A stretch of 64,000 bases of DNA from positions 806,001 through 870,000 of the forward strand of contig NC_010525.1 of NCBI RefSeq assembly GCF_000019805.1, given 5' to 3'. How positions within the stretch are numbered: position 1 is the stretch's first letter; each line of letters begins with the position of its first letter. This document shows, one piece after another, positions 12,665-18,147 of this stretch. Below the pieces are notes generated by a model. It saw only the letters and a list, made by a program, of their open reading frames with translations, was not told the origin of the DNA and did not search any database. The stretch is from Pyrobaculum neutrophilum V24Sta (lineage in GTDB: Archaea; Thermoproteota; Thermoprotei; Thermoproteales; Thermoproteaceae). The translations under genes and the position numbers were made by a program.

Positions 12665-13240
12665 GTGAGTTTTGAGAAAAACCTCCTGGAGAGGATCGCC
12701 TCCTATATACCGGGCTACGTGGGGTATAAGGAGAAGGAGGTGAGGAGGGAGACAGACGCCCTTGTTAGACGGCACGTCGCGTCTATACTGTCCGCCGCCG
12801 CGGCGCAGCTGACGCTGAGCCCCACGGAGGCTAGGGCCGTGGCGGCGAACCCAGAGGCGAGGTTCCTCTGGGACTCCGTGAAGGCGGCTCTCGACAAAGT
12901 GGCCCAGAAGATAGACAAGGCGCAACACGGCTACTCCGGCTTCTTCGACCTGGCCAAGGTGGACGAGTCCGTCCTCGAGGAGGTCTACAGACACGACCTA
13001 GCTCTCGTGGAGACGGCGAAGAGGGTGGCCGAGGCCGCCTCCTCCCTAAAGGCTCTGAGGCCGCTCTCCCAGGAGTGGCTCGACGCGCTTAGGCAGATCC
13101 TCGCCCAGCTCCAGAGCCTCGACTCGGCGGTGGACGAGCGCAGTAGGATACTCGACGCCATAAAGACGCCGCCGCAGCCCCAGTGGGAGTCCGGCGGGAG
13201 GAAGAGGGGGCTCCTCGATAGACTTCTCGGCAGGGGCTAA
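12665..13240 (+). CDS. Cytoplasmic alpha-helical protein next to SPFH gene
   Basis: A 191-residue, charged and almost wholly helical protein without membrane segments: EKNLLERIASYIPGYVGYKEKEVRRETDALVRRHV at the start, heptad-like stretches through the middle, a Pro-rich linker (KTPPQPQWES) and a basic tail (RKRGLLDRLLGRG). Start GTG 12665 is 24 nt after CTTTTTATAG. Genes of this kind are often found beside SPFH proteins with C-terminal zinc ribbons. Its place resembles that of the PspA-like gene in ydjFGHI, but I do not claim homology to PspA. Confidence 0.65.
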   Translation: MSFEKNLLERIASYIPGYVGYKEKEVRRETDALVRRHVASILSAAAAQLTLSPTEARAVAANPEARFLWDSVKAALDKVAQKIDKAQHGYSGFFDLAKVDESVLEEVYRHDLALVETAKRVAEAASSLKALRPLSQEWLDALRQILAQLQSLDSAVDERSRILDAIKTPPQPQWESGGRKRGLLDRLLGRG

Positions 13241-13269
13241 GTATATATACAAGCGCGCCGGACGGGGCG

Positions 13270-14241
13270 ATGCCGCAGGTCATACAGTGGGTCAGCCCCA
13301 AGGAGGGGGAGATCATCTGGAGGTACCCCGTGGACAGGATCGAGTGGGGGGCCCAGCTCATCGTCGAGGAGTGGCAGGCGGCTGTCTTCATGCGGGACGG
13401 CAAGGTCTACGACGTGTTTAGGGCCGGGAGACACACCTTGACCACCCTCAACCTGCCCCTCCTCACCCAAGCCCTGAGTAGGATCGCCGGCTTCGACAAA
13501 TCGCCTTTTGTGGCCGTCGTCATATACGTCTCGCTGAAGCAACACCAGCTCCCCTTCGGCGGGCGGGGGCAGACGGCGGAGCTCGCCCCCATACAGTTCT
13601 ACGGCTCCGCGTGGTTCCGCGTCGCCGACCCGGCCCTCTTTGTGACCCAGGTGGTGGGGGGCCAGAACATATACACCACGGAGGACCTCCAGAGGTTCCT
13701 CAGAGGCTACTTCAACGAGCTTCTAATGGCCGAGCTCTCCCGCCAGTCCATATTCACCATATACGGCAACCTCGACCAGGTAAGCTTCATCGCTAAAAAC
13801 GCCATAGACCCCCACTTCAGGAGGCTGGGCCTGGAGCTGGTAGACGTCAGGTTCGAAGGCCTAGACGTGACCGACCAGGTGTGGAGAGACCGCCTCTTCT
13901 TCATCAGAGCCACCGGGGTTAACCCCGCCGAGTATCTGAGGATGGAGACCGTGCAGAAGGCCGCGGCGGAGTTGGGCAAAAGCCCCGGGGCGGCCGCCGG
14001 GACGGGCATAGTCCTCATACCGCCCCTCCTCTGGCCTCAGCAACAAGCCGCGCCGCCGCCCCAGCCGGCGCAGCCCGCCGCTCAGCAGGGCGTGGTCTGC
14101 CCCCAGTGTGGATACGTCAACCCGCCGGGGGCTAAATACTGCATAAACTGCGGCTATATGCTGGGCAAGAGGTGCCCCCAGTGCGGCTTCGTGAACCCGC
14201 CCGACGCCAAGTTCTGCATGAACTGCGGAGCCAAGCTATGA
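13270..14241 (+). CDS. SPFH/Band 7-type protein with two C-terminal zinc ribbons (YdjI-like)
   Basis: A 323-residue protein. Residues about 1-240 resemble the SPFH/virion-core-like domain of bacterial YdjI proteins: VIQWVSPKEGEIIWRYP, VEEWQAAVFMRDGKVYDVFRAGRHTL, and a helical region from FNELLMAELSRQSIF. An Ala/Pro/Gln-rich linker (QQQAAPPPQPAQPAAQQ) leads to two treble-clef-like ribbons, CPQCGYVNPPGAKYCINCG and CPQCGFVNPPDAKFCMNCG, each with four cysteines. SPFH proteins form membrane-associated scaffolds. TATA AGTATATATAC lies 24 nt upstream of ATG 13270. First gene of a tight three-gene operon. Confidence 0.85.
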   Translation: MPQVIQWVSPKEGEIIWRYPVDRIEWGAQLIVEEWQAAVFMRDGKVYDVFRAGRHTLTTLNLPLLTQALSRIAGFDKSPFVAVVIYVSLKQHQLPFGGRGQTAELAPIQFYGSAWFRVADPALFVTQVVGGQNIYTTEDLQRFLRGYFNELLMAELSRQSIFTIYGNLDQVSFIAKNAIDPHFRRLGLELVDVRFEGLDVTDQVWRDRLFFIRATGVNPAEYLRMETVQKAAAELGKSPGAAAGTGIVLIPPLLWPQQQAAPPPQPAQPAAQQGVVCPQCGYVNPPGAKYCINCGYMLGKRCPQCGFVNPPDAKFCMNCGAKL

Positions 14242-14534
14242 CCCCGGGCGAGAGGGCAGCCGCCCTCGCGGCCCTCGCCCTCGGCCTCTACCTAATAGCG
14301 GCGTCGCTCGGCGCCGCCCCCCTTTCGTTAAACGCGGCTGTGGGCATCCCCCTGGCCGTCTTCGGCGCCGCCTACGCAGCGCTTGGGGGAACTAGGGAGG
14401 CTCTGCTGTGGGGCGGCGTGTTGACCATAGCGGGCGTCTCGACAGCGGCGGGAGGCGCGGCGCCTCCCCTGCTGGTGGCCGGCGTCGCCCTGGTCTTCGT
14501 CTCACTCTTCGCCCTGCTGGCGGGCAGAAGATGA
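14238..14534 (+). CDS. Small integral membrane protein, three to four TM segments
   Basis: A 98-residue protein starting at ATG 14238, which overlaps the stop of the SPFH gene (ATGA). After a short MTPGERAA it is almost entirely hydrophobic, with Ala/Leu/Gly-rich helices (ALALGLYLIAASLG, AVGIPLAVFGAAYAAL, ALLWGGVLTIAGVSTAAG, PPLLVAGVALVFVSLFALLAG). It could be the membrane partner of the SPFH protein. Its stop overlaps the start of the next gene. Confidence 0.75.
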   Translation: MTPGERAAALAALALGLYLIAASLGAAPLSLNAAVGIPLAVFGAAYAALGGTREALLWGGVLTIAGVSTAAGGAAPPLLVAGVALVFVSLFALLAGRR

Positions 14535-15469
14535 CCCTCTACCTCGCCATCGGCGGCGGGGGAGACGTGGTGATGGCGGCGGCGCTTGCCGGCGACAACC
14601 CCGTCGGCCAGATACCCTGGGAGAGATACGTGGTTGACCCCACGCCGGGCCCGGTACCCCCCGAGGCGCTGAGAGGCGTGGAGGAGCTGGGCGGCGGGCT
14701 CTACCTGGCCACGGCCGGTAGCTACGTGGAGAGGGGTGGGAGAAGGTTCAAGACACAGGGCATGTGCGCCGCCGAGGTCCTGGGGAAGCCCATATACATC
14801 GTGGACCCCTACAGAAGGCCGTCGGAGCTTGCTAAAGCCCTGGCGCGGTTCGGCGGGGTGGTGGGGGTAGACGTGGGCGGGGACGTGCTGGGAATCGGCT
14901 GCGAGGAGTCGCTGGGGAGCCCGCTGGCCGACGCCTACGGCCTCGCCGTGTTGGCCAAGCTGGCAGAGGGCGGGGCCTACGCGGAGTTGCTCGTCATGTC
15001 TCCCGGCGCAGACGGCGAGTTAGACAGGCGGTACATAATGGAGAGGGCGGCCGAGGTGGCCAAGATGGGCGGCCTCCTCGGGGTGACCGGCATATCGAGG
15101 GGGCAGGCCGAGGTGCTCGCCGGGCTCGTGGAGCGGTGCGTCACGGAGGCCTCCGCCGTGGCTCTAAAGGCGCTCCGGGGGGAACACGGCCCGGCGCCGC
15201 TGAGAGGCGGCTTGAGGAGGGTGGAGGTGGACATCTGCGCCGCCGTGGGGCTCCGGCTTGAGCCGAGGGTCCTCCTCAAGCTGAACAAGGCCGCCTGGAC
15301 GATATACGAGAGGGACCTCCCCATAGACAAGGCGGCGGACGTCCTCCTGGAGGAGGGCATCCCCACGGAGCTACACCTCGAGAGACTTCTGGCGGCCGGC
15401 TATGACCCCAGGAGGGCCGTGGAGGAGCTGAGGAGGCGGAAGAGGTGCCTGCCGGCGGCTAGGCCTTAG
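14531..15469 (+). CDS. DUF1152 family protein
   Basis: A 312-residue protein with the DUF1152 pattern: YLAIGGGGDVVMAAALA at the N-terminus, VVGVDVGGDVLGIGCEESLGSPLADAYGLAVLAKL in the middle, and LLVMSPGADGELDRRYIMERA. Function is unknown; the Gly-rich first loop suggests nucleotide or phosphate binding. ATG 14531 overlaps the preceding stop, so it is the third gene of the SPFH operon. Its end overlaps the convergent gene at 15459 by 11 nt. Confidence 0.8.
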   Translation: MTLYLAIGGGGDVVMAAALAGDNPVGQIPWERYVVDPTPGPVPPEALRGVEELGGGLYLATAGSYVERGGRRFKTQGMCAAEVLGKPIYIVDPYRRPSELAKALARFGGVVGVDVGGDVLGIGCEESLGSPLADAYGLAVLAKLAEGGAYAELLVMSPGADGELDRRYIMERAAEVAKMGGLLGVTGISRGQAEVLAGLVERCVTEASAVALKALRGEHGPAPLRGGLRRVEVDICAAVGLRLEPRVLLKLNKAAWTIYERDLPIDKAADVLLEEGIPTELHLERLLAAGYDPRRAVEELRRRKRCLPAARP

Positions 15470-16259
15470 CCGGCGCGGCGGCCTTGGCCTCCGCCAGCAC
15501 ACGCCTGTATCTCTCCCCGTCAAACGGGCCGGCGGAGACGGCGGCGGATTCCACAGACACCGCCACAGTTAGGCGTTGCCCGTAGACTGTCACGTTTAGA
15601 TAGGCCGTCCCCACGCTCTTGAGCGCCACGCCGTTGACCTCGCACCTCCTCACGGTGTATGTCCCAGTGCCGTTGCCCCCCAAGTCGCCCAACAGCTGGG
15701 CCACCTGCCCCTGGGTGAGGCGGCCGCTCTCCTCCACCTCTACGCCGGTGTACCCCAACGCGGAGCACGGCCCCAGCGACCTGGCGGAGGCCACCTCCCC
15801 CCTCAGGAGGTAGAGAGAGGAGCTGTTCGCCGGCTTCATCTCGCCTTGGCACTGCCCCCCTGCGCAGGTCACGACGTAGGCAGTGCGGCCCTCCGTGGCG
15901 GCCTTGTACTCAACCCTCAGGGGCCCCCGCGGCGGGACGGAGACGTAAAAAACGCCGAAGCTGTAGTTCCCAAGCGGGCCCGCCCCCTCCACAGACCACC
16001 CCCTCATCGACACAGACACGCCGCCGATAGACACCGTCACCGACACGGTGTAGTTCACCTCGTAGTTCCCCCCTCCGAAGGGCAACCGCGGCGTTGTGGC
16101 AGAGGCCCCGGCCGCCGCCGTCGTGGAGACGCCGGCTTCCGCGGCAGGCCCGCCTCCGCCGGGGGCGAGGCTCCGCGCGGCGCTCTGCGCGGTGTATAGG
16201 AAGTAGAGCGCCGCCCCCACTATTAGGACGGCCAACACCAGATACGCGACCTTGCCCAT
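15459..16259 (-). CDS. Secreted or membrane-anchored protein of unknown function
   Basis: A 266-residue protein with an N-terminal membrane anchor (KVAYLVLAVLIVGAALYFLYT), a Gly/Ala/Thr-rich linker (about residues 30-60), and an extracellular beta-rich domain with four cysteines (VVTCAGGQCQGE, LGPCSALG, VRRCEVNG) and N-x-S/T sites. TATA CTTATATATTG on this strand lies about 23 nt upstream of ATG 16259. No family recognised. It sits between the SPFH operon and the two zinc-ribbon genes. Confidence 0.65.
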   Translation of the reverse strand: MGKVAYLVLAVLIVGAALYFLYTAQSAARSLAPGGGGPAAEAGVSTTAAAGASATTPRLPFGGGNYEVNYTVSVTVSIGGVSVSMRGWSVEGAGPLGNYSFGVFYVSVPPRGPLRVEYKAATEGRTAYVVTCAGGQCQGEMKPANSSSLYLLRGEVASARSLGPCSALGYTGVEVEESGRLTQGQVAQLLGDLGGNGTGTYTVRRCEVNGVALKSVGTAYLNVTVYGQRLTVAVSVESAAVSAGPFDGERYRRVLAEAKAAAPAKA

Positions 16260-16309
16260 GGAGCTACCCCAGGCCCAATATATAAGGGTTGCCGCCCGAT
16301 GCGCCGGCG

Positions 16310-17152
16310 CTACAGCCTCGCGCCCCCCTCGTACCTCCCCCTCCTCGCGGCGGCGAAGGCCGTAAGCCTAAGCAGAGCCCCGAGGCCCGCCAACCCCCCG
16401 CCCGCGGCCCCGCTGGAGGGCGGTAGCCCCAGCGCGAAGGCTGCCAGCGCGCCTACCGCCGCCGCCCCCAAAGCCGCGGCTACCCCCAGCGCGAGACCCT
16501 CCGCCCTCCCCCTCCTGGAGAGGGGGTACTCCAGCCTGAGGAGGGAGCCATCCGCGCCGTCTACCAAAGCGCCGTAGCTCCTACCCCCGTACTGGTAGGT
16601 CAAGGCCCAGAAGGGGTAGTACACGATCCCCTCGAAGCTCCACTCAACCTGCACCCTCGTCTTAAACACAGAGGCGTAGGTCCTCGCCTCCTCCACCACC
16701 TCCTCCAGGGATCTAAAAGCCGCCTCGGGCTCTAGATCTGGCTGGTGGAAGACGCCCACCCTCTCGAGGGACGGCTTGAAGGGGGTCCTCCACCTGGCTG
16801 GGAAGGAGTAGCCGCTGGGCAGCTCAAAAGGCGGCTTCGACATGGCGAGGGCTGCTGCGTAGGTCTCCAGCTCCGGGAGAGGCTCAAAGACGACGTGGTA
16901 GAGGTAGAGGGGGAGGAAGTGGAGCTCGGCCCCCGTCGGCGAAGCCGCGGGGAGATCCTCCGGCGCCCCCACGGGCCGGAAGCCCAGCGCGGTGCGGAAG
17001 GCCGCGGTTTTGTCCACAGACGGCTTGAAGATGTAGACCCTCTCGTAGGTCCTCCCCTCGCTCACCACCGTCCCGCAGTAGGGGCAGACGTAGAACCTCC
17101 TCCCCGGGGGGGCCTCGTACCTTGCCCCGCAGTAGGGGCACTGTACAATCAT
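16310..17152 (-). CDS. Zinc-ribbon membrane protein (YdjG/YdjH-like architecture)
   Basis: A 280-residue protein. The N-terminus has a zinc ribbon (CPYCGARYEAPPGRRFYVCPYCG). A soluble middle domain follows with LPLYLYHVVFEP and FEGIVYYPFWALTYQYGGRSYGALVDGADGSLL, then C-terminal transmembrane segments (ALGVAAALGAAAVGALAAFALG and a second around LAGLGALLRLTAFA). ATG 17152 overlaps the stop of the upstream zinc-ribbon gene (ATGA). The order zinc ribbon / soluble domain / membrane tail is that of the ydjG and ydjH products, which lie beside an SPFH gene in Bacillus. Role in membrane stress is inference. Confidence 0.7.
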   Translation of the reverse strand: MIVQCPYCGARYEAPPGRRFYVCPYCGTVVSEGRTYERVYIFKPSVDKTAAFRTALGFRPVGAPEDLPAASPTGAELHFLPLYLYHVVFEPLPELETYAAALAMSKPPFELPSGYSFPARWRTPFKPSLERVGVFHQPDLEPEAAFRSLEEVVEEARTYASVFKTRVQVEWSFEGIVYYPFWALTYQYGGRSYGALVDGADGSLLRLEYPLSRRGRAEGLALGVAAALGAAAVGALAAFALGLPPSSGAAGGGLAGLGALLRLTAFAAARRGRYEGGARL

Positions 17153-18147
17153 TTCTCCACCCTGCGGCTCCTGAGGAGGCCCCCAGCCGCCATGTAGGAG
17201 AGGGCGCCGCCCGCCGCCACCACGGCGGCTCCCACATAGGGGTCAACCCCCAGCGCCGCGTAGCCGAGCCCCCCGGCGAGGCCGCCTGCGGCGGCCGCCG
17301 CCAGCAGGCTCGCCGCCTTGTGCTCGGCGAAGACGGGCTCCTCAGCCAGCACAACCTCGCCGTCCCAACCCGCTATGTAGTAGCGGAAGCTGGAGCCGCG
17401 GTAGAAATACGGCATAACCCACAGCGGGAGGTAGGTCAGGGGGGAGGCCGCAAGCCTCTCCACCTCGTAGTCCACCGTCTTATCCCTTACGCGGGCCGCC
17501 GCCGTGAACACGCCGACGGCCGCCCTGGCCCTCTCCTCGGCGTCTCGGTCGACGGCGGCGAGGAGCCGGGGGATGAGGGCTCTAACCGCCTTGGCCTTAG
17601 CCCGCTCCGCCGTAAACTCGCCGGCCATGAAGGCAGAGGCCTGGCCCCCCGAGGCGACCTCTGCGAGGGGCCTGGGCTCAGGCCCAGTCTTGAAGAAGTG
17701 GCTTGTAAGTCTGTCTATGGAGAGGCCCCAGGCGGCCCTCCTCGCCAAGACGGCCACCACGTCTGCAAGAGCCACCCTGCCCCCAACCCTCACCACCCTA
17801 GTGACGGTCTCAGCCCGCGGCTGCCCCCTCACATACACCGTCTTGGTGTAGGTCACCACCACGGTCGCTTGATAAACCGCGGATAGCCTGGCGTCTACGA
17901 GGTAGAAGGGGAGGTAGTAGAGATCCGGGCTCGCGAAGTTGATCTCTGAGATCCTCCACCTGAGGCTGAGGTCGCGCCGCGTCCTCTCGACGGCCCTCTT
18001 CACCACCTCGGAGGCCGGGAGGGTGGGGACGGCCAGGACGTCCCGGGGCTCCCCGGCGAGGAAGTTGGCCCTCCCGCAGTATCTACACACCACGACGACT
18101 GAGTCGGGGGTTACGTCTAGGGGGGCCCCGCAGTAGCTACACCTCAC
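17149..18147 (-). CDS. Zinc-ribbon membrane protein, paralogue-like partner of the next gene
   Basis: A 332-residue protein starting at GTG 18147: zinc ribbon CSYCGAPLDVTPDSVVVVCRYCG, a domain with LYYLPFYLVDARLSAVYQATVVVTYTKTVYV, a second similar strand set LAASPLTYLPLWVMPYFYRGSSFRYYIAGWDGEVV, and two C-terminal membrane helices (ASLLAAAAAGGLAGGLGYAAL, VGAAVVAAGGALSYMAAGGLL). The open frame extends to 18309, but the TATA element at 18166-18174 lies 23 nt before this GTG, and the ribbon begins right after it. Architecture matches its downstream neighbour, suggesting an old duplication. Confidence 0.75.
   Translation of the reverse strand: MRCSYCGAPLDVTPDSVVVVCRYCGRANFLAGEPRDVLAVPTLPASEVVKRAVERTRRDLSLRWRISEINFASPDLYYLPFYLVDARLSAVYQATVVVTYTKTVYVRGQPRAETVTRVVRVGGRVALADVVAVLARRAAWGLSIDRLTSHFFKTGPEPRPLAEVASGGQASAFMAGEFTAERAKAKAVRALIPRLLAAVDRDAEERARAAVGVFTAAARVRDKTVDYEVERLAASPLTYLPLWVMPYFYRGSSFRYYIAGWDGEVVLAEEPVFAEHKAASLLAAAAAGGLAGGLGYAALGVDPYVGAAVVAAGGALSYMAAGGLLRSRRVEK

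Follow-up and report, generated by a model that had tools for sequence, protein, structure and literature searches.

An archaeal module of SPFH and zinc-ribbon membrane proteins that may work like the ydjFGHI system of Bacillus

Do seven neighbouring genes of the archaeon Pyrobaculum neutrophilum V24Sta belong together, and which known system does their association resemble? The genes, which we call a to g, occupy positions 12665 to 18147 of a stretch of 64,000 nucleotides (hereafter, the window), corresponding to positions 806001-870000 of a genome that consists of a single contig of 1,769,823 bases (NC_010525.1). An earlier note, made from the sequence alone, had read them as a membrane-stress scaffold resembling ydjFGHI of Bacillus and comprising an SPFH protein, zinc-ribbon membrane proteins, a DUF1152 protein and a helical stand-in for PspA. 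We found that the core module is composed of a, b, c, f and g, and that this module is genuine, old and apparently undescribed, with a cousin in bacteria. A literature search, which had most subscription journals and preprints outside its reach, found no published description of the archaeal module.

The seven-gene locus

The genes are arranged in the window as follows.

a, 12665..13240, plus strand: soluble helical protein of 191 residues, with an N-terminal amphipathic helix, a conserved IPGYxGYKxKExxRE motif and a predicted four-helix bundle.
b, 13270..14241, plus strand: SPFH/Band 7 protein of 323 residues, with two C-terminal zinc ribbons and without a transmembrane segment.
c, 14238..14534, plus strand: small polytopic membrane protein of 98 residues, as judged from hydropathy and the family alignment.
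d, 14531..15469, plus strand: DUF1152 protein of 312 residues (PF06626, 1e-82).
e, 15459..16259, minus strand: anchored secreted protein of 266 residues with an N-terminal transmembrane segment and without a Pfam match.
f, 16310..17152, minus strand: protein of 280 residues in which a TFIIB-type zinc ribbon (PF08271, 1.7e-7) is followed by a soluble domain and by membrane helices at the C-terminus.
g, 17149..18147, minus strand: protein of 332 residues with a zinc ribbon, a beta-rich soluble domain with a long hairpin and two C-terminal membrane helices.

All seven frames are open at these coordinates, and Pfam matches and a hydropathy scan agree with the topology, so that the gene order and protein types proposed in the earlier note stand. 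The scan detected no hydrophobic segment in a, b and d, several in c, C-terminal ones in f and g, and a single N-terminal one (residues 1-27) in e. ATGA overlaps join b to c and c to d, which makes b-c-d a single transcription unit; on the strand opposite to a-d lie g, f and e, with g and f overlapping. Among the window proteins, a, c, e and g matched no Pfam family. A scan of the window for the archaeal-TATA pattern gave no match, and a search of PHROGs yielded nothing useful.

Conservation across archaea

Conservation was followed in an order-level survey of 45 Thermoproteales genomes, in a near set of 14 Thermoproteaceae stretches from 12 genomes, and in two wider sets. The a-chosen set comprised 40 of 167 loci with matches to the LIMLP_15305 profile (see below), spread by hand over families; the b-chosen set comprised the best 80 of 533 confirmed relatives obtained by scanning GTDB contigs with b alone, with taxa including Thermoproteus, Bathyarchaeota, Caldarchaeum, Thermofilum, Desulfurococcales, Thermococcus, Methanoperedenaceae and Jordarchaeum.

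Gene a adjoins b in 40 of the 40 a-chosen loci, both being in one frame in L185 and b running off the contig in L161. The same was observed in 79 of the 80 b-chosen loci, the exception being L214, where b lies at a contig edge. These 79 pairs are all on the same strand, 78 of them are spaced within -60 to +100 base pairs, and the median gap is 1 base pair. Such a grouping is well beyond chance: a and b are nearly inseparable neighbours in archaea. We do not claim an a-b fusion in L185, as the linker in the joined frame is odd and b probably starts inside it.

The usual companions of the a-b pair are f/g, in one or two copies, and c or a related family, c'. With f/g counted when longer than 600 bases, the b-chosen loci contained no copy in 29 cases, one in 21 and two or more in 30; a looser count gave 52 loci with f/g. 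In Thermococcus, a, b and f/g occur together in L242, L243, L247, L248 and L276. Gene c was found in 30 of these 80 loci, and c or c' in 50. The alignment of the c family (A5) has 20 members with an invariant WG. The c' proteins are a second family of small membrane proteins encoded directly 3' of b (e.g., L274 8979-9323), recovered by clustering in 27 loci.

Among the Thermoproteales genomes surveyed, 32 have b-like proteins, a few of these recognised only by the zinc ribbon; 29 have a and 13 have g, the last being detected in two of eight genera by a single-sequence search. Thermoproteus-type loci L100, L101 and L103 carry a compact a-b-c-g-f operon. The earlier note had looked to relatives for a conserved neighbourhood, and we found a-b, often with f/g, kept far beyond Thermoproteales. 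One locus, L102 (7858-9066; G041:C1:427857-429065), holds a decayed module in which a is intact, b is cut after about 64 residues and f is reduced to a C-terminal remnant; no c or g was found there.

The picture is different for d and e. Both were present in 6 of the 14 Thermoproteaceae stretches, all six from the window's own genus, and in none of the 40 a-chosen and 80 b-chosen loci. L092, also from the window's genus, carries a, b, c, f and g without d or e. Since d and e are absent from L092 and from L100, L101 and L103, they must be later neighbours. They are Pyrobaculum-type neighbours only, outside the conserved module, and the DUF1152 protein, which the earlier note had counted as a member, has to be dropped from it. 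These two genes are also where a plainer explanation holds, namely, that separate housekeeping genes became neighbours by chance in Pyrobaculum. For a, b and f/g, this explanation is refuted by the a-b adjacency (79/80 and 40/40) over very distant archaea and by the adjacency of b and f/g in bacteria as well, and for the locus as a whole it retains next to no probability.

The SPFH protein and its zinc ribbons

Protein b matched PF13421 (Band_7_1) at 1.7e-26 and 93.6 bits, the gathering cut-off being 24, and PF01145 at 1.1e-16. Its zinc ribbons lie at residues 277-298 and 300-323 (PF13240/PF12773). PF13421 was matched by 40/40 members of the b family at E <= 0.001, and Zn_Ribbon_1 by 34/40; in four loci (L182-L185), a SHOCT domain replaces the ribbons at the C-terminus. 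A search of PDB sequences with b and g returned only ribosomal ribbons and weak RecN matches.

The ribbons and f/g tend to go together. With f/g called at E < 1e-25 and L093 excluded as its ribbon is out of frame, f/g was found in 78 of 124 loci with ribbon-bearing b and in 0 of 16 with ribbonless b. This coupling is compatible with a ribbon-mediated link of b to f/g. In L093 (7723-9060), the part of b that encodes the zinc ribbons is out of frame and b reads into c, owing to either a frameshift or a sequencing error.

A recurrent neighbour of b, seen at L174 (7898-8494) and in 14 other loci, is an arrestin-like protein (PF00339, 1.3e-5) that ends in a zinc ribbon.

The ribbon-membrane proteins f and g

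Proteins f and g belong to a single family, represented twice in the locus; the N-terminus of g carries CxxC...CxxC. A hidden Markov model (HMM) built from Thermoproteaceae f/g only had module f/g genes as all of its top 70 matches (E from 6e-135 to 4e-19) among 3131 open reading frames, so that the f/g kinship cannot be put down to iterative searching. Elsewhere in a Thermoproteus-type genome, a second f-g pair (L104 8292-10150; G042:C1:1878291-1880149) is unaccompanied by a, b or c. Thus f/g can stand alone, or this pair can be a paralogous set.

The AlphaFold2 model of g, based on 44 sequences, has a mean predicted local distance difference test (pLDDT) score of 93.5, with a predicted template modelling score of 0.83. 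It comprises, in order, the zinc ribbon, a long beta hairpin (75-134), a long helix (180-211), further strands and, at the C-terminus, two helices that are 26 and 23 residues long. Searched against PDB, the model gave a best Foldseek E of 0.42 with a probability of at most 0.09 among the 50 matches listed, which is no proof of a new fold; VIA-align 2 gave a best Z of 3.6, under the 7-8 typical of unmatched models. As the model is confident and has no PDB counterpart, a single solved structure would give an annotation to the many proteins at present labelled 'TFIIB-type zinc ribbon-containing'. Two predicted proteins of giant viruses in BFVD, both bearing the name DnaJ-like subfamily C member 3, resemble the g model (E 1.8e-7 and 2.3e-7, probability 1.00).

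SPFH proteins often partner with proteases or chaperones. This textbook association, which the available part of PMC2636767 also bears on, invites the explanation that the module is a quality-control adaptor, in which an SPFH cage with f/g would hold membrane proteins that have misfolded, or hand them over to chaperones or proteases, without any lipid remodelling. The match of the g model to the DnaJ-like viral models and the arrestin-like zinc-ribbon genes of 15 fetched loci lean the same way. However, the template modelling score of the viral matches is only 0.35-0.37 and their DnaJ-like name is automatic, and no protease or chaperone family was prominent among the conserved neighbours inspected. 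We consider a quality-control role rather unlikely.

Protein a and the absence of PspA

The AlphaFold2 model of a (55 sequences, pLDDT 87.9) shows a short N-terminal helix followed by a four-helix bundle. Across the 55 sequences, P16-G17, G20-Y21-K22 and E25 are invariant. The 11 residues before this motif form a helix with an amphipathic moment of 1.67, compared with 1.36 in the bundle helices, and a hydrophobicity of 0.8, compared with -0.5.

The NCBIfam family NF047596 (LIMLP_15305), named after a Leptospira locus, shows similarity to a over residues 70-162 at 3.4e-6 and 27 bits, under its cut-off of 210. At E <= 0.001, the profile was matched in 167 of 398 Thermoproteota genomes, and above the cut-off in 0 of 398; the family, for all this spread, carries no functional annotation. 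Foldseek comparison of the a model with PDB was not convincing, the best match being IncA at E 0.21. The candidacy of a as a relative of PspA or ESCRT-III (endosomal sorting complex required for transport III) gained no supporting match, since no such chain was among those listed by Foldseek and VIA-align 2; helical bundles are poorly discriminated, and such an absence excludes nothing.

PspA itself (PF04012) was over the cut-off in 0 of 45 Thermoproteales genomes, with 11 weak sub-threshold matches, and was not detected among the window proteins; 8 of 398 Thermoproteota genomes have it over the cut-off. Only one of these eight (G249) is also among the 167 genomes matched by the LIMLP_15305 profile, against about 3.4 expected (8 x 167/398), numbers too few to interpret as mutual exclusion of PspA and the module. 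The TPM domain of YdjH (PF04536) was found in 0 of 45 Thermoproteales genomes, the control being positive in B. subtilis and seven others.

These results bear on whether the locus is a true but strongly diverged ydjFGHI (Psp) system, with a as a remote PspA, f/g as YdjG and c replacing YdjH. The SPFH protein is of the same type and a helical gene stands in front of it. In addition, f/g share the ribbon-soluble-transmembrane order of YdjG, and five of 35 f/g members gave weak PepSY/YPEB matches (best 0.01; residues 167-239 in the L165 member), YdjG having two zinc ribbons, a YpeB-related domain and a transmembrane segment according to the available part of PMC11237479. Against this, the PepSY/YPEB matches are far under the Pfam cut-off, PspA and TPM do not exceed theirs in Thermoproteales, and the model of a is a compact bundle of four helices, with neither a good Foldseek match nor a PspA or ESCRT-III chain listed. 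Such a descent appears improbable to us. Of the helical stand-in for PspA suggested in the earlier note, a correspondence in role is possible; the predicted fold of a does not extend it to kinship.

Relatives in bacteria

A tblastn search with a Bathyarchaeal f/g protein returned 11 plasmid records, from Paracoccus, Pseudorhodobacter, Vibrio, Comamonas and Tsukamurella. An SPFH match lies directly upstream of the f/g homologue in 10 of them, and the eleventh, from Tsukamurella, has a neighbour annotated as an SPFH protein. Four annotated f/g-type regions (L195, L196, L281 and L282) were inspected in full; a fifth, L283, is unannotated. As f/g homologues stand next to SPFH genes in these plasmids, the b + f/g combination is pan-prokaryotic.

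This bacterial pair of an SPFH protein and a 'TFIIB-type zinc ribbon-containing protein' is like the module in that b and f/g homologues are adjacent and in the same order. Unlike the module, it has one f/g copy per record, and a and c were not detected in eight plasmid stretches, where the HMM of a gave no match; tblastn for a in plasmids gave weak unrelated matches only. So far, then, a is an archaeal signature, the Leptospira name of its family apart.

The surroundings of the bacterial genes vary. In L195 (Paracoccus plasmid), the order is TelA-type toxic anion resistance protein, DUF2927, SPFH and f/g homologue; in L196 (Vibrio plasmid), the SPFH + f/g pair has genes for TIR-domain and TRAFs-binding proteins on the opposite strand, at a distance of a few kilobases. 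The same SPFH type occurs within polyamine operons in L192 and L194 (Gemmatirosa and Novosphingobium plasmids), where the genes after it match the f/g profile weakly (about 2e-4) and, in L194, are annotated as DUF4178.

Possible mode of action

In Bacillus, as far as the available parts of PMC8581546, PMC9239133 and PMC11237479 go, YdjI is a soluble SPFH protein required for PspA foci, and the membrane proteins YdjG and YdjH (the latter with a TPM domain) must be present for YdjI and PspA to be recruited; the requirement of both for membrane recruitment of YdjI is described in PMC8581546. From the architecture of the module and from this analogy, we infer, with a slight preference over the contrary, an archaeal SPFH assembly that f/g and c would fasten to the membrane and that would have a as its constant partner in the cytosol. 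On the cytosolic side of the membrane, b would form a ring or dome by means of its SPFH domain. The f and g proteins, with c, would act as anchors holding b, probably through their zinc ribbons meeting those of b, much as YdjG and YdjH serve YdjI. Protein a would dock on b, its N-terminal amphipathic helix touching either the bilayer or b. The complex might then organise or protect the membrane, or proteins within it, without PspA.

Several observations weigh against this scenario. The coupling of ribbons and f/g rests on two or three lineages, because the 16 ribbonless loci are not independent. No f/g was found in the 29 b-chosen loci mentioned above, some of which lie at contig ends, nor, at E < 1e-25, in 26 ribbon-bearing loci with at least 3.5 kilobases on both sides. 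In the Caldivirga/Vulcanisaeta-type family (11 loci with full b), the arrangement is altered, a being nearby in 10 loci and at the usual spacing in one; b is ribbonless there and f/g occurs in none, and therefore anchoring in these organisms must differ. Two genomes of the window's genus, G033 and G036 (93 and 96% completeness), are without a, b and g, which together with the broken copy in G041 means that the module is dispensable.

It is tempting to go further and suppose an ancient, undescribed archaeal membrane-protection complex, in which a would take the role of PspA and an SPFH cage would be anchored by an f/g family of unseen fold shared with bacteria, providing a Psp-like response where PspA is absent. 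We put this forward tentatively, as a possibility we would sooner doubt than defend. Nevertheless, with most Thermoproteota lacking PspA over the cut-off, the constant a-b pair and the anchors shared with bacteria constitute a concrete candidate for membrane protection or organisation.

Comparison with known systems

Prokaryotic SPFH families are classified in the available part of PMC2636767, which mentions small soluble ones that lack documented members; the available parts of PMC13086221 and PMC7567364 have no bearing on the module. The nearest archaeal precedent, as the accessible portion of PMC10936438 describes it, is an SPFH protein with a zinc ribbon in the Meth_adaptin ESCRT loci of Methanobacteriales. 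The likeness consists in such a protein standing in an archaeal membrane-remodelling context; unlike those loci, the module has other partner genes, and Vps4/ESCRT-III were not seen in module loci, where no profile search for them was made. One might accordingly picture an ESCRT-like component acting in the sorting of vesicles or cargo, the role suggested for the Meth_adaptin loci. The arrestin-like ribbon protein adjoining b in some loci and the helical bundle of a would suit such a component, yet the neighbour families inspected, again without a profile search, include no ESCRT-III or Vps4 cluster, and we regard sorting as very unlikely.

For the membrane-tied SPFH assembly that we favour, the closest parallel is ydjFGHI of B. 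subtilis, and here the resemblance seen in the earlier note holds in part. Like YdjI, b is a soluble SPFH protein of the same type, with a C-terminal zinc ribbon and no transmembrane segment; zinc-ribbon membrane proteins are encoded in the operon, f/g sharing the order of ribbon, soluble domain and membrane helices with YdjG, which we know here from its description; and a helical gene comes first, where PspA stands. Unlike ydjFGHI, the module has neither PspA nor a TPM protein, contains two copies of one ribbon-membrane family, adds the small membrane protein c, and includes in a a protein of unrelated-looking predicted fold. Being copies of one family, f and g are not YdjG plus YdjH. Orthology to ydjFGHI as a whole is rejected because PspA and TPM are missing (0/45 each). 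Overall, the module may work like the ydjFGHI system of Bacillus, with its own partner and its own anchors, but it is not that system.

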